Positions 2,843 to 20,765 of a stretch of DNA of 20,765 bases are shown piece after piece (position 1 is the first letter of the stretch; the number at the start of each line of letters is the position of its first letter). The DNA comes from a virus, in IMG/VR virus record IMGVR_UViG_3300007734_000448, positions 1-20,765 of that record; one strand, given 5' to 3'. The notes below the pieces were generated by a model. It made no database searches. It was not told the DNA's origin and saw only the letters and a list, made by a program, of their open reading frames with translations. A program made the position numbers and the translations under genes.

Positions 2843-4042
2843 TTATTTGCGAGCGGCTTCCAGCGCGGCGACACGGGCGCGGAGCGTCTTAACCTCGGCG
2901 ACGAGCACCGGAACCAGTTTAGCCGCGTCCATAGCCCACGCATCGGTGACCTCTTCTCCGTCGTCGCCCTTCTTGACCGCTTGCGGGAACACGGCGTGAA
3001 CCTCTTGCGCCAAGAATCCGAAACGGTCCTTGTCGCCGTGGTTTTTCCAATCGAAGACGCGGGGCTTAAGGCCGTCGATGATGGCCCCGCTGTTGGTCAC
3101 GTCGCGGACGTTTTCCTTAAGACGAGCGTCCGACGTGGTATTGTAGAGAACGCCGGTTGTACCGTCCTGCGTAATAGAGCCAATGCCGGAACCGTTGCGG
3201 CCAAATCCGGCATAAATTGTTCCGCTGCTTGATGCGGAGTCCTTATTTACAATCAGACGACCAGAAGCACCTTCAAGCTGGACGTTGTAATTGTTATTGT
3301 ATCCAGACGAAGTAGATGTGCCGCTGTTTACTTGACCAGAAAACGTCGCGCTGCCGCTCACCTGCAACTTATCTCCCGTTGGTGTGGTCGTGCCGATGAG
3401 GACGTTGCCGCCTTGGGATTGAATCGCTAGGTTGCGGCCAAACGTGGTGCCCGGATCAATCGCCTGAATTGCCGAAATAGTGCTGTTTGCGCCAAGGTAT
3501 AAACCACCATCATCAGCAGATGTTTTAATACGAATGGCATAATCGCTCTCAGTCGTAATACTATCCAACGATTTGTTAAACGTACCAACACCAGCGACGT
3601 TGAGGCTGCCTGATATGGCGCTCAATCCCGCGCCGCTGACAGAGAGGTTGCCGGTGACGGAAAGTGCTGAAGAGCTAAGTGATGCCCAAGCTGCTGTTTG
3701 TCCTTGGTTGGTCCATTGAAAGCCGCCCGCATCAACGCCAGCAATAAAACGAGTGAGGCTGTCACTCGTAAGTGCCATGAGACTTACCGTAGAACCACCG
3801 CTGGTCTTTCCTTTCAGGTATGTGTTATTCGTAGCAAAAATTATATCGCCGGATGCAGTAAGGTTCCCATTATCGTCGATGGTGACCCCGCTATTCTGAA
3901 TCAGCTTTCCTGTCGTGCCATCATAGCGAGCCACGGCGTTGTCAGTCGCGCTGGTGGGCCCGCGGACGTTGCCGGTGCTGGGTACGATCTGCGCCGAGAC
4001 AGTAGCGGCGATCGCGAGGATAAGAGAGAGATAACGTTTCAT
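2843..4042 (-). CDS. Tail fibre with C-terminal S74 intramolecular chaperone
   Basis: This is a 399-residue host-recognition fibre candidate. The N-terminus reads like a Sec signal peptide (MKRYLSLILAIAATVSA, likely cut before Gln18), which is rare for a phage fibre. Residues about 20-290 are glycine-, serine- and threonine-rich repeats with fibre phrases such as AVARYDGTTGKLIQNSGV. The end is a peptidase S74 chaperone: TSDARLKENV gives the Ser304/Lys309 dyad, followed by FGFLAQEV and a C-terminal coiled coil (VAEVKTLRARVAALEA). In this family the domain trimerises the fibre and then cuts itself off just before the serine. The central part (about 3190-3900) is AT-richer than the flanks, suggesting exchange of the receptor-binding portion. 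Confidence 0.88.
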   Translation of the reverse strand: MKRYLSLILAIAATVSAQIVPSTGNVRGPTSATDNAVARYDGTTGKLIQNSGVTIDDNGNLTASGDIIFATNNTYLKGKTSGGSTVSLMALTSDSLTRFIAGVDAGGFQWTNQGQTAAWASLSSSALSVTGNLSVSGAGLSAISGSLNVAGVGTFNKSLDSITTESDYAIRIKTSADDGGLYLGANSTISAIQAIDPGTTFGRNLAIQSQGGNVLIGTTTPTGDKLQVSGSATFSGQVNSGTSTSSGYNNNYNVQLEGASGRLIVNKDSASSSGTIYAGFGRNGSGIGSITQDGTTGVLYNTTSDARLKENVRDVTNSGAIIDGLKPRVFDWKNHGDKDRFGFLAQEVHAVFPQAVKKGDDGEEVTDAWAMDAAKLVPVLVAEVKTLRARVAALEAARK

Positions 4043-11845: not shown

Positions 11846-12745
11846 CTAGACTAGCGTGCTTGGGCAATCAGGATGCTTGATCCGGCGGAGCTCGCCGACT
11901 GCCGCGAAGATCTCCTTGGGATTCGCCGGATAGGTCAGATCGCCGATGTGACTCAGTGCCACTTTCGTGTCGGTGTGGATTTTTCCGCCGAGCTTTCGCC
12001 ATTCGTGGCAGAGCATGTAATCCTCTGACAGCCAGATGGGATTCCCGGGCATTACCTCGCGCACGCCAGATTTAAAATAAGCCCTGGAAGTCTTGAGCGT
12101 GTGAACGTCGGGATCGTTGCTGCCGAGATTGTATTCGGGCGCAAGGCCGGCCTCGCGGATCGCGTCAAACACGCTGCGATGGATCAGCATGAAGCCGGTG
12201 CCAGCGTGCACGACCTCGACCAGCCCGCGTTCGTCGATCTTGGCACCAGCCAGACCGTTGATCGCGAATTGCGGCACGACGCCCTTGAGCGCGTAAGGTG
12301 CGGTAACGATCTTGTGTCCGACCATGCCGTGCTGCCAGAGCCGTGCCACTGCATTACCCGGGAAAACGATGTCGGCGTCGATATACAGCAGCCAGTTGTA
12401 CTTGGTCGCCAGGAACTTCGCCGCGATCTTGTTTCGTGCCCGGTCGATGTGGCTTTCCTTGTCCAGGAACATGCTTTCGGCCACGAGCGGCTGGAGCTCG
12501 ACCTCGCCCTGCTCGTTACGCACGCGAATGCGAACGTGCAGCAGCGTCTCGTTGTAAGACGTCATGAAGCCCATCTTAACGTTACCGCCGTAGCACGGCG
12601 TACCGATTACGATCCTATCGGCTTCGTCGAAGACCATAGGCGCCGGCGCTTCCTCGGTCCTGCTCGAGACCGCTGCAATCTCGGCAGCGTGGTCTGTTAA
12701 TGCGTTGCCGGCATCAGCCGGCGCGTGTGCTGTTTGGTTGCTCAT
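11846..12745 (-). CDS. GT-A family glycosyltransferase next to the capsid gene
   Basis: This 299-residue protein has a ~40-residue unstructured N-terminus, then a GT2-like GT-A fold: VIGTPCYGG, the region leading to NWLLYIDADIVFP with the metal-binding DAD at residues 123-125, a GTGFMLIHRSVF loop (182-193), LSEDYMLC holding the putative catalytic acid pair (241-242) and a His in SHIG (266). It should move a sugar from a nucleotide donor to an acceptor in the cytoplasm; donor and acceptor are unknown. It is inserted between the major capsid gene and the neck genes, so it is made late with the virion. Possible targets are capsid or tail proteins, phage DNA or host surface glycans. Confidence 0.8.
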   Translation of the reverse strand: MSNQTAHAPADAGNALTDHAAEIAAVSSRTEEAPAPMVFDEADRIVIGTPCYGGNVKMGFMTSYNETLLHVRIRVRNEQGEVELQPLVAESMFLDKESHIDRARNKIAAKFLATKYNWLLYIDADIVFPGNAVARLWQHGMVGHKIVTAPYALKGVVPQFAINGLAGAKIDERGLVEVVHAGTGFMLIHRSVFDAIREAGLAPEYNLGSNDPDVHTLKTSRAYFKSGVREVMPGNPIWLSEDYMLCHEWRKLGGKIHTDTKVALSHIGDLTYPANPKEIFAAVGELRRIKHPDCPSTLV

Positions 12746-12847: not shown

Positions 12848-13708
12848 TTAGGCGGACTTAACGTGCGCGCCGGCGGTGTTGTCACCGAGAGCAGCGCCGA
12901 ACATAACGTCCACGGACGCCCAGGCGGAACGGCTGGAGAGAGATCCCCAGGTGTTAAGCTGGACCGAGAGACCGAGATCAGGCAGCGTGATAACACGCGA
13001 ACCAGCGAGCATCGAGGCCACGCCCGGGTCGATCATCGGCAGACCGGAAGCCGCGGCGACGGCCTCGGGCCCGACCGCGAATCCGTAAATGTTCGTACCG
13101 GCACCGTCCCAGCGGGTGTTCAGGATAATCGCGTCGAAACCATAGGCGCCGGCGCGATAGCCAGAACCGCTGGCAAGACCGAAGTTCTCCGTGGTCGCCG
13201 GCAGCAGCTGCGCGAAGGCAGTGCCGTCAAGGATCAGGTGGCGCATCGAGCTCTTAGCGACCGCGGCCCAGAGGGTCTTGGTGTTCGCGGCAGAGAACGA
13301 AGCCTGCGCGATCGTGACGTTCGTCGGGAAGTTCGTCGCGGTGATCGGCGCCAGGGCGATGTCGATAATCTTGTTAGCGATGATCTGCGCATTGATCGCG
13401 GCCAGCTGCTCGAGGCGGAAGCCCTGGTTCAGCTCTTGGCTCGAGAGGTTGTAGCTCTTCGAGTAATGCTTAACCTGGACCGCGACGTTGGTGACGTTCG
13501 TGTCGCCGGTCTCGAAGTTGGTGGGGTTGGTCTGGACGGCGCCGGCGGCGTTGGCCTTGCGAACCTGCACGAAGGCGTTCTGGTTCATCGGATCCGTGCT
13601 GAAATCCGTGCTGAAAGCGCGGAGGGGAGCCAGGCGGTTGCCCAGCGTGGTCAGGGTCGCCTCGGCAAGCGTGTCGAGGACGAGGGAGGAGCTCAGGGAA
13701 TTAGCCAT
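12848..13708 (-). CDS. Major capsid protein (HK97-fold candidate)
   Basis: This 286-residue protein has the features of a siphovirus major capsid protein: an N-terminal arm (MANSLSSSLVLDTLAEATLTTLG), a strand-rich segment with VQVKHYSKSYNLSSQEL, an alpha-rich P domain (QLAAINAQIIANKIIDIAL) and a central SSMRHLILDGTAFAQLL. It follows the protease/scaffold gene by 21 bases and is followed by hairpins. The leader is A/T- and pyrimidine-rich, with no Shine-Dalgarno site, which is surprising for the most abundant product. A 493-codon frame on the opposite strand is a codon-bias shadow. Confidence 0.8.
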   Translation of the reverse strand: MANSLSSSLVLDTLAEATLTTLGNRLAPLRAFSTDFSTDPMNQNAFVQVRKANAAGAVQTNPTNFETGDTNVTNVAVQVKHYSKSYNLSSQELNQGFRLEQLAAINAQIIANKIIDIALAPITATNFPTNVTIAQASFSAANTKTLWAAVAKSSMRHLILDGTAFAQLLPATTENFGLASGSGYRAGAYGFDAIILNTRWDGAGTNIYGFAVGPEAVAAASGLPMIDPGVASMLAGSRVITLPDLGLSVQLNTWGSLSSRSAWASVDVMFGAALGDNTAGAHVKSA

Positions 13709-13729: not shown

Positions 13730-14764
13730 TTATTTACGAACGGAAAAAGCGGCGAAAAGAGCATCGCGGTTCAATTTGCGGAAAGCGCGCTTTTCGGATC
13801 CCTCGGGCATCGCCTCGTAAGCGGCGAGCATTTCCTCGGGCGTCTTGAAAGCGGCGCTCTTGCGGGCCAGCTGCGCGTGCGCGACCTTGACCGGCGCAAC
13901 GCCAAGCTGCCGAGCATCAAAGGCGGCGAGATCCTCGACCTTGACCTTGAGCTCGTCGCGCTCTTTCGAGAGCTCGGCAACGGCGGCCTCGGCCTTAGCC
14001 TTGTCGGCGGTCAGGCTGGCGATCAGGGTGTCCTTTTCGGCCAGCGCGGCCTTGTGGGTCTCGGTCAATTTAGAGAGCTCGGCAACTTGCTTCTCGGCCT
14101 CGGCCTTGAAAGTGGCGATCTCGGAATCCTTGGCAGCGAGAGCGGCGGCGTCAGGCGCCGGAACGGTCTCGGGCTTGGTTTCGGTGGTCATAGAGGGAGT
14201 CTGTAAAGTCGCGGGCGCGTCAACGGCAGAGAGAAGCCCGTTCGGATTTGCAGCGGGTCTCTGCACCAGATCGGCCGACATTACATTCGCGATGCGCATG
14301 CTGGGCGAGGAGCGGAGCGCGCCGCTGGGCGCTGAGTCGCCGAGAGAGGCTGGGATCTCACTGCCATCGGCCAGAACCCATACTGGGCGATACTCGAGCA
14401 CCAGCGAGACCCCAAATTGATCGGGCACTTTCTGCGCGAGCTCGACCAGCTTATCATACGTTGCGCCGGCCTCGCGCTTGAAAGACTCTAGGAACTCGAA
14501 GGACTTTGCCTTTATTTTGTTTCCCTCGCGATACATGCCAGAGAAAAAGCCGATCTCCTGGCCGAGCCGATCGGATCCGGCGCCGTCGTGCTTGAGATAG
14601 GCGCGGAGGCTCTTGCCGAGCAGCAGGCGCATCGCGTCGTCAATGCTCTTGTCGTCGATGTAGAGACCGTGGCCGGCGGCCTCAATCCCGCCGGTGATCA
14701 GCGAGACGTTGGCGAAGCCGCTGGCATCAGCGGAGAACTCCTGGAGGCAGACGCGATGGCTCAT
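13730..14764 (-). CDS. Prohead protease fused to coiled-coil scaffold
   Basis: This 344-residue protein matures the capsid. The N-terminal ~170 residues resemble phage prohead serine proteases: AYLKHDGAG with His59, QFGVSLVLEY with Ser120, and a SADLVQRPAANP end. Residues ~200-285 are a strong Ala/Glu/Lys coiled coil typical of scaffolds, and the C-terminus has FRKLNRDALFAAF, a possible capsid-binding helix. I use the ATG at 14764, 17 bases after the portal stop; a TTG at 14785 would overlap the portal. As in lambda C/Nu3, an internal ATG at 14191 (MTTETKPE) could give a separate 153-residue scaffold, but this is not proven. Confidence 0.78.
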   Translation of the reverse strand: MSHRVCLQEFSADASGFANVSLITGGIEAAGHGLYIDDKSIDDAMRLLLGKSLRAYLKHDGAGSDRLGQEIGFFSGMYREGNKIKAKSFEFLESFKREAGATYDKLVELAQKVPDQFGVSLVLEYRPVWVLADGSEIPASLGDSAPSGALRSSPSMRIANVMSADLVQRPAANPNGLLSAVDAPATLQTPSMTTETKPETVPAPDAAALAAKDSEIATFKAEAEKQVAELSKLTETHKAALAEKDTLIASLTADKAKAEAAVAELSKERDELKVKVEDLAAFDARQLGVAPVKVAHAQLARKSAAFKTPEEMLAAYEAMPEGSEKRAFRKLNRDALFAAFSVRK

Positions 14765-14781
14765 AATTGGTTCAGATTTCG

Positions 14782-16614
14782 TCAACTTTCGCGCTCGATC
14801 TCGAGCACCTTGCGCTCAGCCCAGGCATAGCCGGCGTCGCCACCCCAGAGCGCCCACGCTATTCGGCCGGCGGACGGGTAGCCTGGTTCGCCCGGGTTGA
14901 ATCCTTCGCCCTGCTTGTCCACCTCATGCCGGCGGAAAAACGATTTCATGCGGAAGATCGTTTCCGTAGATAGCGCCCGGCCGTTTGAAATGTCGCGTGC
15001 ACGAGCCACCCCGACGGCAGTGCCTCCGCGGTTGAACTCCTCGCGCCAGCGTAAGCCTCGGGCGGCCTCTTCGCGCATCGCCTCGGTCGGCTCGGTGTTC
15101 ACCTGCAGCGCGGCCTGGGAAAGTGCGGCAGCGTCGCTTGGGATCTGAACCGGCACCGGGATTGGTTCGTTAGCGGTGGGCGATAGATCGCCGCGCAGCC
15201 CGGGCACCGGCAGGCCGGCGTCCTCGAGCGCTTGGTTTTCAGCGGCGCGCCCGGCGATGTGGCTCTTCAGGTCGATGCCACGCTCGGCGCAGATGTCGCT
15301 TAGATTGATGATACCCGAGAGATAATCCTCGCGCTGGGCGGCGGCGTCGCGGCCAAAGTCCACGGTCAGCCGCGGTGGCATCGTGAAAGACCATTTCCAC
15401 CAGTCAGGGTTCGCCGGCAGTCGGCCATTCTTAATCGCCTTGGCGATGGCGTAGCCGACGGCGCGTCGAGCGAACGGCTTAAGCAGATCCTGGCGATCCT
15501 CGACGCTGCGCATGGCGGTCGAGATCACGAAGCGGGTGTTGGCTCCGCCGAGCGCGCTGATGTCCCAGGCTAGCTCAAACGGCCAGTTGATGCCGGCCAT
15601 CGCGTTACGCAGCAGCCGGTCCATGAATTTCTGCCACGCATCGCCCGGGCGGTCATTCTTGAACGCCTCGAGCTTGGATCCGCTGCCGGCCTTGAAGTGC
15701 CGCACCATGCCGCCGAAAAACTCCTTAGCGGCGACATCCTGGCCGACCATAGGCGCACCGGAAAGCGCCACGGCTGGATCGCTCGTATCAGCGAGCCCGC
15801 TTTCGTTGTACTCGATCAGCCCGATGCTCGAGGCGAGCGCTGATGCCATCTTTTCGTACCCCTGCACCGTGCGCAGATCCTTTAGATCCAGAATCGCGTG
15901 CGCGAAGCCTGGCAAACCGCGGAATTGGTTAATCCAGGCCGGCTCGGCTAGCAGCATCATATCGCGGGCGGTAACGTACTCGCGCGCCTCGGGCATCTCC
16001 TCCTCGCTGCCGGGCATCTGGGACTCCTCCTCGACGTAAAAGGCGACCGGCCGGCCCTGCGGGTTGATAACGACCCCGTCGATGCAGCGGAGACCCTGAT
16101 ACGGTCCTGATGTCAGGAAGCCGTCGCGGTCGAGCTTGTCGCTGCTAGGGTTGTGGATCCCTTCGCTCGGGATCAGCTGGATCGCTGGAAACGCGGTCTC
16201 GTACTCAGTCAGGATGGCGCCCACATCGCCGTCGCGGTCCACGGCGACGGACGCAAGGAAAAGGCTCGTCTGGAAATCGCGGCCGCTGATGTCCGCGATC
16301 GGGTACCATTCATTAAGCAGCCATTCGCGAGCAATCTCGCCCCACACCTGATCGGCGCCCTCGTATTTTGGCAGCCAGGAGCGGCCGACGGCGTACATGG
16401 CCTTGGCGTCGATCGCGCCCTTAGCCGGACCTAGGTTGGCGTACAGTTTGCGCGAATCGCTCAAGAGCTGCGCCCGGTCCGTGGAATTTACCTCGCTCGA
16501 GATGCTGCCGATGGTGCGGACCTCGAGCGGTCGCCGCACGATCTCCTTGCGGTTAGTGGCGTCGAATAGAGCGCCCAGCGCTGCGCGGAATCGTTGCGGG
16601 AATGGCGTCGGCAT
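14782..16614 (-). CDS. Portal protein (lambda gpB family) with extra C-terminal domain
   Basis: This is a 610-residue portal, the dodecameric ring for DNA entry. The N-terminal ~500 residues follow the lambda gpB family: SRKLYANLGPAKGAIDAKA, VDRDGDVGAIL, IQLIPSEGIHNP, GRPVAFYV, RGLPGFAHAILDLKDL and GMVRHFKAGSG are recognisable. Residues ~510-610 are an added domain with ARARDISNGRALS, MKSFFRRHEVDKQGEGF, YPSAGRIAWALWGGDAG and a terminal helix. This module is familiar from various phage structural proteins but its function is not known to me. It follows the gpW-slot gene by two bases. Confidence 0.85.
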   Translation of the reverse strand: MPTPFPQRFRAALGALFDATNRKEIVRRPLEVRTIGSISSEVNSTDRAQLLSDSRKLYANLGPAKGAIDAKAMYAVGRSWLPKYEGADQVWGEIAREWLLNEWYPIADISGRDFQTSLFLASVAVDRDGDVGAILTEYETAFPAIQLIPSEGIHNPSSDKLDRDGFLTSGPYQGLRCIDGVVINPQGRPVAFYVEEESQMPGSEEEMPEAREYVTARDMMLLAEPAWINQFRGLPGFAHAILDLKDLRTVQGYEKMASALASSIGLIEYNESGLADTSDPAVALSGAPMVGQDVAAKEFFGGMVRHFKAGSGSKLEAFKNDRPGDAWQKFMDRLLRNAMAGINWPFELAWDISALGGANTRFVISTAMRSVEDRQDLLKPFARRAVGYAIAKAIKNGRLPANPDWWKWSFTMPPRLTVDFGRDAAAQREDYLSGIINLSDICAERGIDLKSHIAGRAAENQALEDAGLPVPGLRGDLSPTANEPIPVPVQIPSDAAALSQAALQVNTEPTEAMREEAARGLRWREEFNRGGTAVGVARARDISNGRALSTETIFRMKSFFRRHEVDKQGEGFNPGEPGYPSAGRIAWALWGGDAGYAWAERKVLEIERES

Positions 16615-16616
16615 AG

Positions 16617-16895
16617 TCAGCGAAGAAAACCAGCAGTCTGCGAGACGGGTGCAGTAAATCCGGCGTCAATCGTCTGGATAGCGAGCTCGCTTGCCATAAT
16701 CAGATCGGAGATCGTCGTTCCCGGGAGAGCTTGAACCGTGATGGACTTACCGTTTAGCGCCGTGCCGACGATCTGGCCGTTCTGCGCGCTCATGTCGGTC
16801 CACTTGGAAGCCTGCAGGTCTTCGAGCCATTTCCGCGGGTTGGCCGCGTTGTTCCGCCTCGCTTGACGCAGCAGAATGGAAACGAGGATTTTCAT
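16617..16895 (-). CDS. Small protein in the gpW head-tail joining slot
   Basis: This is a 92-residue protein directly upstream of the portal gene, the place of lambda gpW. The N-terminus has a basic helix (KILVSILLRQARRNNAANP), the middle carries strands (GQIVGTALNGKSITVQALP) and the C-terminal part a helix (ISDLIMASELAIQTID). A helix-strand-helix layout is compatible with gpW-like connectors, which bind below the portal, but no diagnostic motif is present. Position is the main support. Confidence 0.55.
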   Translation of the reverse strand: MKILVSILLRQARRNNAANPRKWLEDLQASKWTDMSAQNGQIVGTALNGKSITVQALPGTTISDLIMASELAIQTIDAGFTAPVSQTAGFLR

Positions 16896-16913: not shown

Positions 16914-17615
16914 TCAACGTAGCCCGGCGTGCGCTATGTCTATTGCCGAGATCTCGGGCGGCCTCATCTCGCCGGTCTTGCGCAGCGTGGAGAACTCGAC
17001 CCGCATATTATCGCGCACGATGCAGTATGCTTGACGGAGAGAGCCTTTGATCAGGCTTTCTGGGTGAATCGGGCAGCCGTCCTCGCGCAGTTGCTCGAGC
17101 TTGCTAAAGGTCTGAAAGTACTCGGCCGCGGCCAGTCCGCCCATAATGGCGAAGCGGTCATTGATGCCACCGAACCGGCCCCACCAGGGTGTCAGCGCTT
17201 CGTTAATTATCGGCGTGTAGGTCTGGTCGAATGAGTGGAAGAACAGATCCGGTCGCACGCGCACGAACAGATCCGCATCGCCCACCGGATGATCGCTGTA
17301 GAGCTTCCACCCTTGCTCTAGCTGCCAGAGTTGCCGCAAGACGGCCTGCACCGGCACGCTGCGCGCATATGGCTCGAAGCGCACGAACTCGGCCGGCTCC
17401 GGGATTTCTGGCTGATTTGGCTCGACCTTGCTGATCAGGGTTTTCGGCCGGAACAGCTGCTGCGTAATTTTCCAGTCGTCGGAATCTTCGTCCTGCACCG
17501 TCGAAATGTAGAAGTGCAGAGGTTGGGGCAGATGCCTGGCGACATGCCATTTGAACGTGTGCGCGCACGTTTTCCATGTGCGCATGTGGCCGGCGATGAT
17601 GATGACGGATCCCAT
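16914..17615 (-). CDS. Glycosyltransferase-like protein
   Basis: This 233-residue protein has features seen in small GT-A-like transferases of surface polysaccharide loci: an N-terminal strand and switch SVIIIAGHMRTWKTC, then YISTVQDED, DLFVRVRPDLFF at residues 116-126 in the place where a DXD motif would act, and GGINDRFAIMGGLAAAEYF (149-167). These suggest a nucleotide-sugar enzyme in the cytoplasm. A classic DXD is absent apart from DAD at 113-115, so metal use is uncertain. It follows the radical SAM gene by three bases, so the two are almost certainly co-translated and probably work in one pathway. Confidence 0.65.
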   Translation of the reverse strand: MGSVIIIAGHMRTWKTCAHTFKWHVARHLPQPLHFYISTVQDEDSDDWKITQQLFRPKTLISKVEPNQPEIPEPAEFVRFEPYARSVPVQAVLRQLWQLEQGWKLYSDHPVGDADLFVRVRPDLFFHSFDQTYTPIINEALTPWWGRFGGINDRFAIMGGLAAAEYFQTFSKLEQLREDGCPIHPESLIKGSLRQAYCIVRDNMRVEFSTLRKTGEMRPPEISAIDIAHAGLR

Positions 17616-17618
17616 AAA

Positions 17619-18962
17619 TTATAATTTCATCTGGCGCAGCTTTGCCGCACCGTCTGGGTTAGCCACATAGGCTTCGTCGATTTTAGCCGCGGCGTATTTT
17701 TCAAGTGAGCCAGTTACCTTAAGGGTGTGCAGCGGTGTCCCTTCAATCTCAGCGGTGCCGCTCAGTTGATGCGTGTCTAATCCGCCGGTGTCGTAAAGGT
17801 CTTTTATGTAGGCGATCGTTTCCTGCTGCTGCTCCTTTGTTTCGCCCGGGAGCCCGACGGTAAATGTGCCGTGAACGGTCATCCCTAGCTTTTTCAGCAT
17901 GCGCGCCGTGTCTGCCGCCTTCGCTAGATTCAGCCGCTTATTAATGATCTTATCAATCACGGTCTGGGATCCGCTCTCGAAGCCGAGCTTAACTCCGCGG
18001 CAGCCGCATTCGATCATGAGCTTCCAGGTCTCTTCCTTGATCGTGTCGGCTCGGCACATTGCGAACCAAGGCAGGCGGAACTCTTCCATCACCCGGGAGA
18101 TCAGCCGCGTGTGCTTCTCGGTCAGGTTAAACGTGTCGTCGTCCAGATAAATGCTCTTGTAGCGCACGCCTTTCGTCCAGGCATCGTCGATCTGCGTTTT
18201 GATGGCTCCGCGAACCCACTCGGGCGAATGGCAGCGCACCGTGCGCGCCCTGGTGCCATCTGGATCGTTGCCGGTCATTACCGCCGGCCAGACGCAGAAA
18301 ATGCACTTGTAAGGACAGCCGCGGCTCGTGATCAGCTGCAGCTGCGGCGCCTCCTGGCCTTTCGGGCATGCGTCCCAGTAATTACCGACGGCGACCTCGT
18401 CGTGCAGCGGGTACGGCAGGCAGTCCATTTCTTGCACGGTCAGCAGATCGTGCGCGATCACGCCGCGCTGGCCGCGGATCACGCGCAGCACTTGCTTGTC
18501 GTATTCGCCCTGGACGATCGCGGCGATGTTACGGTGCCGCCCCAGGATCTCGTCGGCCTTGGTAATGTCCAGCGGACCGCATAAAATGATCTGCGCCTTT
18601 GTCTTCGCGGCGAACCAGTCGATCACTTTCTCGTCATGCACCCAGGCTGCGGTCGCCGTCTCGAGCACCACCCAGTCAGGCGGATCGGCAAGGACTGCGT
18701 CAAAAAACTGCTGGTAGGATTCGCCCCGGGCGATCGAGTCCCGGATCTCTACTGTCGCATCTGGCAGTGTCGCCCGGGTGCGGGCGGCGGCCGAAGCTAG
18801 GAAGAACGGAAACGGCAGATAGCCTCCGTGTCGGAATTCGCCCGGCGCGTGGACCGAGTAGCGGGTGAACGGCCAGCGAGAGCCGGCGCGCACGCCGATC
18901 AGCAGCTGCTGCGTCTTCAGATCCACATCCCACCAGGGAGGGTTAGAGAATAGAACTTTCAT
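17619..18962 (-). CDS. B12-binding radical SAM enzyme
   Basis: This 447-residue protein is a radical SAM enzyme. The N-terminal ~180 residues begin MKVLFSNPPWWDV, the typical start of a cobalamin-binding Rossmann domain. SRGCPYKCIFC at residues 213-223 supplies the iron-sulfur cysteines Cys216, Cys220 and Cys223. The following CVWPAV, the SAM-contacting GFES (327-330) and GLPGET (370-375) complete the signature. Such enzymes methylate or rearrange unactivated carbons, and related forms occur in polysaccharide and lipid loci. The start is the ATG at 18962; the frame runs on upstream to 19163 but that overlaps the terminase. It lies between terminase and portal genes, an unusual place, next to a glycosyltransferase-like gene. 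Confidence 0.88.
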   Translation of the reverse strand: MKVLFSNPPWWDVDLKTQQLLIGVRAGSRWPFTRYSVHAPGEFRHGGYLPFPFFLASAAARTRATLPDATVEIRDSIARGESYQQFFDAVLADPPDWVVLETATAAWVHDEKVIDWFAAKTKAQIILCGPLDITKADEILGRHRNIAAIVQGEYDKQVLRVIRGQRGVIAHDLLTVQEMDCLPYPLHDEVAVGNYWDACPKGQEAPQLQLITSRGCPYKCIFCVWPAVMTGNDPDGTRARTVRCHSPEWVRGAIKTQIDDAWTKGVRYKSIYLDDDTFNLTEKHTRLISRVMEEFRLPWFAMCRADTIKEETWKLMIECGCRGVKLGFESGSQTVIDKIINKRLNLAKAADTARMLKKLGMTVHGTFTVGLPGETKEQQQETIAYIKDLYDTGGLDTHQLSGTAEIEGTPLHTLKVTGSLEKYAAAKIDEAYVANPDGAAKLRQMKL

Positions 18963-18999: not shown

Positions 19000-20765
19000 T
19001 CATGTATCGGACGCTGCGCCGGCGTCCACTTTATCGGGAGATGGTAAGAGCTGCAGCGCGAGCGCCACGGCGACCTGCATAGCCTCACAATCCCACATGT
19101 GATTGGGCCCGGTCTTCGTCCAGCGCCACTCGCTGCGCCCTGTGCTCTTGCTGATGCGCTCACGCTTTACCTCGCCGCGGAGATGGCGTGCATACTCTTC
19201 GCCATGATCAGCGCCGCATTCCCAGGCATGCGAGTTGCCGGCGACCAGAGCGGCCAGCACGTCCTTAACCGGGTCTGATGCCCAGAACATATAGCGCGCA
19301 TACCCCCCGGGCACCTGCGTCTGCTTAATGCTCGAGTGGAATTTCTGCACTTTCTGGCCGTTTGGCCGGATGTGCACGAATGAGTCGTCGCCGCTTCCGT
19401 GGAGCGCGGTCCAGCCGAAGCGGATGCAGTCCTCGTACACATGTGCCGTGCTGAACTGCGCGTCTTGAAAGCATAGCTGAGACTCGACCCCAAAGTGCTG
19501 CCGGATCCCCTCGGCCTGCTCGGTGGTGCTGAGTTTGCCGCGCCAAAGTAGCTGCGAGCCTCCATCGCTCTTCCAAGCGCGAACCACCGCCCAAAAATGA
19601 TCGCGCTGCCGGTCTATTGTCATCATGCGGCGGGCCTCGTTCTCGAGCTTCTCGCGGCCCCGGGCGTGCATGTCCGCGAGCGTGTAGGTTCCGCGGAGCT
19701 CGATGGTCGTGCGGTTCAGCTGCGCCTCTTCGTTGCGCCAAGGCAGCGCCAGGCGTTGCATGTAGAAATCGCGCAGCGGGTTGATCTGACCGCGCTTCTT
19801 GAACTCACCGGCCTGGAGAAACTCGACCGCAAGCTGGCCCATGTCCTCGGCGAGGATCGCGTTCCAGTTAAACGATCGGTGCTTGCCGTCGCGATCTGCC
19901 CGCGACGCCGAATAGCGGCCGGTGCTGTTCCAGCGTGCCCGGGTGGCTGCGCTGTTCGCGTGCTCGTGCGCGCAGTGCGGACAGATCCAGCGCGTCGAGT
20001 TGCGCACCAGTTGCTCGTCCCACATGCCGTTTTCCTTGCGGGCGCCTTCGTCCCAGACGACGCAGACGCGCTTGGCCGGATCGTCAGCAGCCCGTCCGAA
20101 GAATTCCAGCGGCACGAAGCGCTGGCAGCCGAAACACTGCACCGACCAGATCTGCGCCGTGCCCTCGTGCCAGAGCCGGTCGAAGTCGTCATCGGCGTGC
20201 GATCCCTGGCTCTCGTTTAGGATCTTGCTGATGCCGTCGCGAGCGTAGGCGGAGACGCGCCGGCGTGCATGCGTCAGCAGTCCTTGCTTCCAGAGCCAGC
20301 ACTCGCTGTTGAGCTTCCAGCGGATCGACTTGCTCTGCAGATTATTCAGGTTCGCCCCGTTAATTATCAGGTAGAAATCGCCAAAGTAGATTTCGCAGGT
20401 GGCGGCGTCGTGCTTGTTTTTCGGCAGCAGCCTAGCGACCGGCTCGCAGTTGCGCAGTAAGTTGCGGTAGCGTCCCTTGACATGTTCCGCGGCGCTCTCG
20501 TCGTCCTGCTGGGTCCACATGATCGGCCCAGGCTCGTTAGCGATCGCCCAGAGGCTGCAGATCTCGACGAAGAGCGTCTTAAGCGTCTGGATCGCGGCGC
20601 GGCATGTAACCTCGCGCACGCGCTCGTCGGCGACGGCTTCGAACGGCTCGAGCAGATGCCGGCAGGTGCGGATGTCGAATGCGCCCTGGCGTGCGTAACC
20701 TCCGCCCAGCTGCACGAAGTCACGCGCCCAGTCGTGGATCGGCCGGCGATCTGGAAGCGCCCAGC
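19000..20765 (-). CDS. Terminase large subunit (lambda gpA family), 5' end cut off
   Basis: The reading frame stays open to the window edge, so the start is missing. The nearest GTG (20715) is internal, because the codons before it (WALPDRRPIHDWARDF) match the conserved family N-terminus. The ~587 visible residues contain the degenerate Walker A region AAIQTLKTLF, the GANLNNLQSKSIRW stretch before the Walker B position, a zinc-ribbon pair CFGC ... CPHC, and a C-terminal nuclease-like half with the GpA feature SKSTGRSEWRWTKTGPNHMWDCEAM. It is the packaging motor: ATP-driven DNA translocation plus genome cutting at the portal. It precedes the radical SAM gene by 37 bases. Walker A has Leu where Gly is usual. 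Confidence 0.88.
   Translation of the reverse strand, partial: WALPDRRPIHDWARDFVQLGGGYARQGAFDIRTCRHLLEPFEAVADERVREVTCRAAIQTLKTLFVEICSLWAIANEPGPIMWTQQDDESAAEHVKGRYRNLLRNCEPVARLLPKNKHDAATCEIYFGDFYLIINGANLNNLQSKSIRWKLNSECWLWKQGLLTHARRRVSAYARDGISKILNESQGSHADDDFDRLWHEGTAQIWSVQCFGCQRFVPLEFFGRAADDPAKRVCVVWDEGARKENGMWDEQLVRNSTRWICPHCAHEHANSAATRARWNSTGRYSASRADRDGKHRSFNWNAILAEDMGQLAVEFLQAGEFKKRGQINPLRDFYMQRLALPWRNEEAQLNRTTIELRGTYTLADMHARGREKLENEARRMMTIDRQRDHFWAVVRAWKSDGGSQLLWRGKLSTTEQAEGIRQHFGVESQLCFQDAQFSTAHVYEDCIRFGWTALHGSGDDSFVHIRPNGQKVQKFHSSIKQTQVPGGYARYMFWASDPVKDVLAALVAGNSHAWECGADHGEEYARHLRGEVKRERISKSTGRSEWRWTKTGPNHMWDCEAMQVAVALALQLLPSPDKVDAGAASDT

Follow-up and report, generated by a model that had tools for sequence, protein, structure and literature searches.

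Glycosylation of the virion is known in few cultured phages. The mycobacteriophages Che8 and Rita encode glycosyltransferases that are thought to decorate the major capsid protein (MCP) (PMC11256854, citing Freeman et al. 2023), and the hypervariable regions of pelagimyophages carry radical SAM cassettes (PMC7029224). AprD4 of apramycin biosynthesis, acting with the reductase AprD3, is responsible for hydroxyl removal from paromamine, and this diol dehydratase has been set against the cobalamin-dependent diol dehydratases (PMC5461906). HpnJ makes the cyclitol ether of hopanoids from bacteriohopanetetrol (BHT) glucosamine (PMC12583986). In the open-access literature we found no description of a radical SAM enzyme in virion glycosylation, or of the gene pair reported here, which consists of a radical SAM enzyme (RSAM) and a glycosyltransferase-like partner (GTx).

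Organization of the Head Operon

The window, that is, the whole stretch of DNA that was analyzed, is IMG/VR record IMGVR_UViG_3300007734_000448 (20,765 bases), and its head operon lies on the minus strand. The first-pass annotation had placed two ORFs with a 3-nt spacer between terminase and portal, and all of this was borne out, both ORFs being on the minus strand. From the terminase onward, the features are as follows.

19000..20763, minus strand: terminase large subunit (terL), GpA type (PF05876, 3.7e-17; PF20454, 3.5e-13), cut by the window end
17619..18962, minus strand: RSAM, radical SAM enzyme, 447 aa, ATG start (PF04055, 6e-15), with a B12-binding-like N-terminal domain and a radical SAM core
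17616..17618, no strand: junction of RSAM and GTx, the site of an extra gene of ~176 aa (Methyltransf_24) in sibling phages, which is absent here and in L002
16914..17615, minus strand: GTx, predicted GT-A-fold glycosyltransferase, DUF7796-like, 233 aa (AF2 model and Foldseek; homologues above the Pfam DUF7796 cut-off)
16617..16895, minus strand: gpW-like head-tail joining protein, 92 aa, located between GTx and portal, as it also is in relatives
14782..16614, minus strand: portal, lambda family (PF05136, 5.3e-29; phrog_21, 5e-34)
13730..14785, minus strand: protease/scaffold, 351 aa, read by position
12848..13708, minus strand: putative MCP, the proposed acceptor, placed by its position after the portal and the 13730-14785 gene
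11846..12745, minus strand: GTA, a second glycosyltransferase-like protein, directly after the putative MCP gene and followed by connectors and tail genes

The spacers are short: that from terL to RSAM measures 37 nt, the one separating RSAM and GTx 3 nt, and that from GTx to the gpW-like gene 18 nt. The head-operon genes abut or overlap in the relatives L026 and L027, so the operon is probably co-transcribed. The 92-aa gpW-like protein had no family match and was identified by position. The same applies to the putative MCP, homologues of which (about 23% identity) occupy the same position in related phages.

Three side observations concern proteins of the window. The portal ends in a domain of ~105 aa (window 14782-15097, residues about 505-610; phrog_2859) with 53-67% identity to stretches annotated as "major capsid protein" in Roseobacter and Synechococcus phages, which suggests either a mobile head domain or a misannotation. 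The structural module closes with a metallophosphoesterase (756-1502; phrog_221), which the related phages examined also retain, with identity down to 30% in L036-type phages. The protein at 2843-4042, which carries a terminal Peptidase_S74 (endosialidase chaperone) domain, is likely a tail fiber.

The Radical SAM Enzyme

The full radical SAM signature that had been read from the sequence is present in RSAM as CPYKCIFC (residues 216-223), GFES (327-330), and GLPGET (370-375), and the protein passed the curated cut-off of Pfam Radical_SAM PF04055 (56.2 bits against 29.5; E = 6e-15). The three cluster cysteines, GxESG, and the PGET of GLPGET were invariant in 14 of 14 RSAM family members, with identity down to 47%. 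The dN/dS ratios of RSAM (0.03-0.11) and GTx (0.03-0.09) were similar to those of the neighboring structural genes terL and portal; such low values indicate purifying selection, and thus both are maintained as functional proteins rather than being chance ORFs.

Among the NCBIfam models, HpnJ (TIGR03471) ranked first (2e-42, 145.7 bits), followed by PhpK-type P-methyltransferases and others including AprD4, none of them at the curated cut-off. We rejected the identification of RSAM as HpnJ itself, because 145.7 bits is far from the TIGR03471 equivalog cut-off of 577.6 and the true HpnJ proteins of four genomes scored 751-841, and also its assignment to the AprD4 family (59.7 bits against the NF033070 cut-off of 500). 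The AF2 model of RSAM (pLDDT 87.5) was best matched in the PDB by AprD4 (6fd2; Foldseek E 9e-19, TM 0.71), above TsrM, OxsB, CysS, and TokK, and the RSAM family profile found AprD4 in the PDB by sequence as well (1.9e-22). AprD4 and HpnJ, the nearest neighbors of RSAM, both act on an aminosugar glycoside; the resemblance is distant, and so it does not fix the RSAM substrate. In a quick ML tree, the phage and bacterial members of the RSAM family separated from HpnJ with full support, and the phage sequences formed one side of a branch (SH-aLRT 94).

RSAM had also been called a B12 enzyme. At E <= 1, PF02310 (B12-binding) matched 11 of the 14 family members, the best of them at 2.2e-8; two bacterial members (27-28 bits) and one true HpnJ (27.9 bits) fell short of the 32.1-bit cut-off. 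The window RSAM had no Pfam B12-binding match at E <= 1, and its best structural match, AprD4, is the enzyme contrasted with the cobalamin-dependent ones. The designation holds only to the extent that the family has a B12-binding-like N-terminal domain, which makes RSAM a putative cobalamin enzyme at most.

The RSAM genes of distant phages carry insertions at one site within the Fe-S motif, directly after CPYK and before the next cysteine, removal of which restores CxxxCxxC. These inteins measure 140 aa with no endonuclease (L051 and L052), 296 aa (L050), and 270 aa with an HNH domain (L013, 5300-6141; Pfam Intein_splicing, 7.6e-11). The same site is occupied by an 801-bp in-frame insertion in L204 (contig G185:C1:22007-22807).

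The Glycosyltransferase-Like Partner

The window GTx alone matched nothing in Pfam, PHROG, or NCBIfam. Its AF2 model, built on a 14-sequence alignment, reached a pLDDT of 90, and the top Foldseek matches in the PDB were all GT6 alpha-1,3-Gal/GalNAc transferases (prob 1.0, E 5.5e-7, with a moderate TM of 0.48); GTx is predicted from this model to be a GT-A fold glycosyltransferase. In BFVD the model matched proteins of cyanophages, giant viruses, and a chlorovirus that are of DUF7796 type or are glycosyltransferases. GTx homologues passed the 27-bit cut-off of DUF7796 (PF25072; L032, 28.3; L054, 52.3; L057, 52.1) and matched phrog_13607, whereas the window protein is too divergent to match either, with no hit to PF25072 at E <= 1. 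Searching the PDB by sequence with the GTx profile gave nothing meaningful. The family has the invariant residues R119xR121xD123, N152-D153-R154, and H184-P185-E186, which point to a conserved active site.

Occurrence of the Pair and the Wider Cassette

The RSAM alignment search retrieved 36 viral contigs, and GTx was present in 34 of them; the two others (L012 and L013) both end inside RSAM. The pair noticed in the first-pass annotation is thus widespread rather than confined to this contig. The phage backbones that bear it differ widely, and the gene order varies: RSAM-GTx, GTx-RSAM, or split by terL, which lies between RSAM and GTx in L047. In L036, the portal of which is 26% identical to that of the window, the pair is found between capsid-position and connector genes in the order GT2, methyltransferase, RSAM, GTx, epimerase, and GT2, while L035 and L050-L052 have the order methyltransferase, GTx, and RSAM. 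The pair was not seen inside the head block in L034, L035, and L050-L052. The slot between terminase and portal is a property of the window's own lineage; in other phages the two genes are located between capsid and connector genes or lie outside the packaging block.

The GTx-centered search gave 80 viral loci, with RSAM in 43, methyltransferase in 58, and GTA in 36, although some contigs are short, so that absence of a gene is not always proof, and these locus counts, like those from the RSAM search, were obtained by pattern-seeded searching and should not be taken as estimates of prevalence. At least 16 gains or losses of RSAM were counted on the GTx tree. RSAM depends on GTx, but not vice versa, which fits the expectation for a tailoring step, and because it is freely gained and lost, RSAM cannot be essential.

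Near-identical siblings differ in a modular way: RSAM, methyltransferase (MT), and GTx in L003-L011, MT and GTx in L017-L022 (RSAM was absent from those of the contigs that were tested), and RSAM and GTx without MT in the window, L002, L026, and L027. The sibling MT belongs to Methyltransf_24, and other partners are GT2s and an NAD-dependent epimerase. The second glycosyltransferase-like protein, GTA, matched phrog_1574 (2.7e-17), phrog_34859 "glycosyltransferase" (2.7e-4), and, weakly, GT21 and GT8 of Pfam; it lies 65-240 bp downstream of the MCP homologue in all 23 loci (23/23) with a detected MCP. Glycosyltransferase genes are thus linked to head genes: GTA to the MCP homologue and, in the lineage of the window, GTx to terL and gpW, which flank it. 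RSAM and GTx belong to a larger cassette that includes GTA and also MT, which is missing here. Separately, phages of the L046-L048 group have a second Methyltransf_24 family between terL and GTx (L176:15786-16466, L177:11921-12595, and L047:9717-10379), in the slot of RSAM or MT in the window's group.

Two relatives, G168 (32.3 kb) and G164 (31.0 kb), have exact terminal repeats (123 and 102 bp, respectively), and are therefore probably near-complete. G168 carries GTx and MT without RSAM. Its scanned ORFs include a helicase, a replication initiator, RecT, RusA, and a DNA methylase-helicase fusion, and no integrase, hydroxymethylase, or base-hypermodification gene was recognized among them. The fusion (L168:5128-7323) joins an SNF2 helicase to an N6/N4 DNA methylase.

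As to the host, distant portal homologues were found in 20 of 388 Verrucomicrobiota genomes and in 0 of 289 Alphaproteobacteria genomes (up to 33% identity, and 53-54% for the C-terminal domain alone). Because these are only distant portal homologues, a Verrucomicrobiota host may be taken as a weak lead. Six loci in Verrucomicrobiota genomes that have related terL/portal genes lacked the whole cassette.

Among 50,697 GenBank phage records searched at E <= 1e-5, there was no match to GTx (for which 1e-3 with a divergent member was also used), and RSAM had only distant matches, in Streptomyces phage SF3 and two unannotated gut phage records. The SF3 protein was rejected as a cultured relative, since it is 28% identical over 41% of the protein and its gene adjoins thymidylate kinase and MutT genes, which is a different setting. 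RSAM had no PHROG.

Proposed Function and Alternatives

We lean slightly toward the view that RSAM and GTx are enzymes of a phage-encoded glycan-decoration cassette in the late head operon, in which RSAM tailors the sugar. GTx, and also GTA, would attach a sugar to an acceptor, for which a virion protein such as MCP is the likeliest candidate, and in sibling phages the Methyltransf_24 enzyme would methylate the transferred sugar. RSAM would be an optional tailoring enzyme, whose 5'-deoxyadenosyl radical would take hydrogen from the sugar, after which the sugar would be dehydrated, rearranged, or C-methylated. The substrate is very probably a sugar: the carbohydrate target put forward in the initial reading agrees with the predicted GT-A fold of GTx, with the action of the nearest neighbors of RSAM on aminosugar glycosides, and with the glycan-cluster contexts described below. 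We rate the chance that the acceptor is the virion as about even. Counting against the cassette reading are the moderate GT6 match, the positional identification of the MCP, the phages in which the pair was not seen inside the head block, the free gain and loss of RSAM, and the Verrucomicrobiota loci that lack the cassette. For the radical chemistry of RSAM, dehydration, ring contraction, and C-methylation are all candidates. A bolder version, which we put forward tentatively and regard as on the unlikely side, is that the phage RSAM rebuilds sugars on the phage's own capsid, giving a glycan type new to viruses, and that near-identical phages swap this step in and out, using it as a switch of antigenic or receptor type.

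The genome scan of bacteria yielded 75 loci with RSAM homologues (43-53% identity), many of them in Alphaproteobacteria. Their neighbors are NAD-dependent/SDR epimerases, GT2, GT17, UDP-glucose dehydrogenase, and group-1 glycosyltransferase genes, as in polysaccharide-type clusters, and this context favors the strongest alternative, namely that the cassette modifies the host cell-surface polysaccharide, for superinfection exclusion or receptor change, and not the virion. That is also the usual reading of phage glycosyltransferases, for instance in the pelagimyophages with their variable radical SAM cassettes (PMC7029224). We nevertheless consider it unlikely, because the genes lie within the head operon, the putative MCP has GTA beside it in 23 of 23 loci, the late slot is unlike that of typical seroconversion genes, and no membrane flippase or polymerase was recognized in the cassette. 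In addition, where bacteria have the pair, it adjoins flagellin, a protein acceptor. GTx was present in only three of the 75 bacterial loci, all in Opitutaceae (L054, L057, and L080); in L054 and L057 RSAM-GTx comes immediately after a pair of flagellin genes and FliD is close by (Pfam matches to Flagellin_N/C and FliD), L054 also having WavE-type, nucleotidyltransferase, and methyltransferase genes, while L080 starts inside RSAM. Flagellin-modification loci are laid out in this way, and no other clue points as clearly to a glycan attached to protein as the target of the pair. The possibility that the Opitutaceae pairs are recent prophage remnants was rejected, as their context is flagellin and FliD and nothing in those loci matched the structural proteins of the window.

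Alternatively, RSAM might act directly on a residue of a structural protein, by C-methylation or RiPP-like thioether formation or epimerization, GTx being a separate step. The family-level relatives of RSAM in NCBIfam do include peptide/protein C-methyltransferases (ApyD and the methyl-coenzyme M reductase glutamine C-methyltransferase), and most RSAM family members have the B12-binding-like domain; even so, we judge this quite improbable, since the closest structure and the closest curated family act on aminosugars, the bacterial homologues are found among sugar-nucleotide enzymes, and RSAM tracks GTx. It is just as hard to credit that the genes are mobile cargo (a moron) with no coherent link, paired through a shared insertion hotspot: the gain and loss of RSAM and MT among near-identical phages would be expected of cargo, but the pairing holds whichever gene comes first, on phage backbones that are unrelated, and on bacterial chromosomes. 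Hypermodification of the phage DNA, as in some thymidine- or deazaguanine-modifying phages, the pathways of which include radical SAM enzymes and glycosyltransferases, is very unlikely indeed, because no hydroxymethylase or other base-modification gene was among the scanned ORFs of the related genome G168 and the bacterial pairs stand beside flagellin rather than DNA genes.

Comparison with Known Systems

RSAM recurs in dozens of uncultured phages of several lineages, and the cassette is a compact system in which to look for new radical chemistry on sugars. DUF7796 and phrog_13607, which are matched by GTx relatives and have so far been without function, gain a concrete hypothesis.

AprD4, the 1,2-diol dehydratase, resembles RSAM in its whole-length fold and acts on the aminosugar part of paromamine, but the two share 18% identity, and the aligned Fe-S loop is CPYPCRFYC (CX3CX3C) in AprD4 and CPYKCIFC (CX3CX2C) in RSAM. 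HpnJ has the same domain order as RSAM and works after the glycosyltransferase HpnI on a glucosamine glycoside, whereas the phage family is a separate branch of the tree without the hpnI/hpnK context. Phage-encoded glycosyltransferases, predicted ones in the window, are common to the mycobacteriophages and the window, although the glycan of the latter is putative; PMC11256854 mentions no radical SAM enzyme for them, and the glycosyltransferase genes of Maravista described there lie close to the genome's 3' end, while those of the window are in the head operon. The flagellin-associated loci of Opitutaceae have the same RSAM-GTx, with flagellin as the presumed acceptor there and a virion protein as the proposed one here, a parallel that raises the idea of one enzyme pair tailoring glycans on self-assembling protein shells and filaments.
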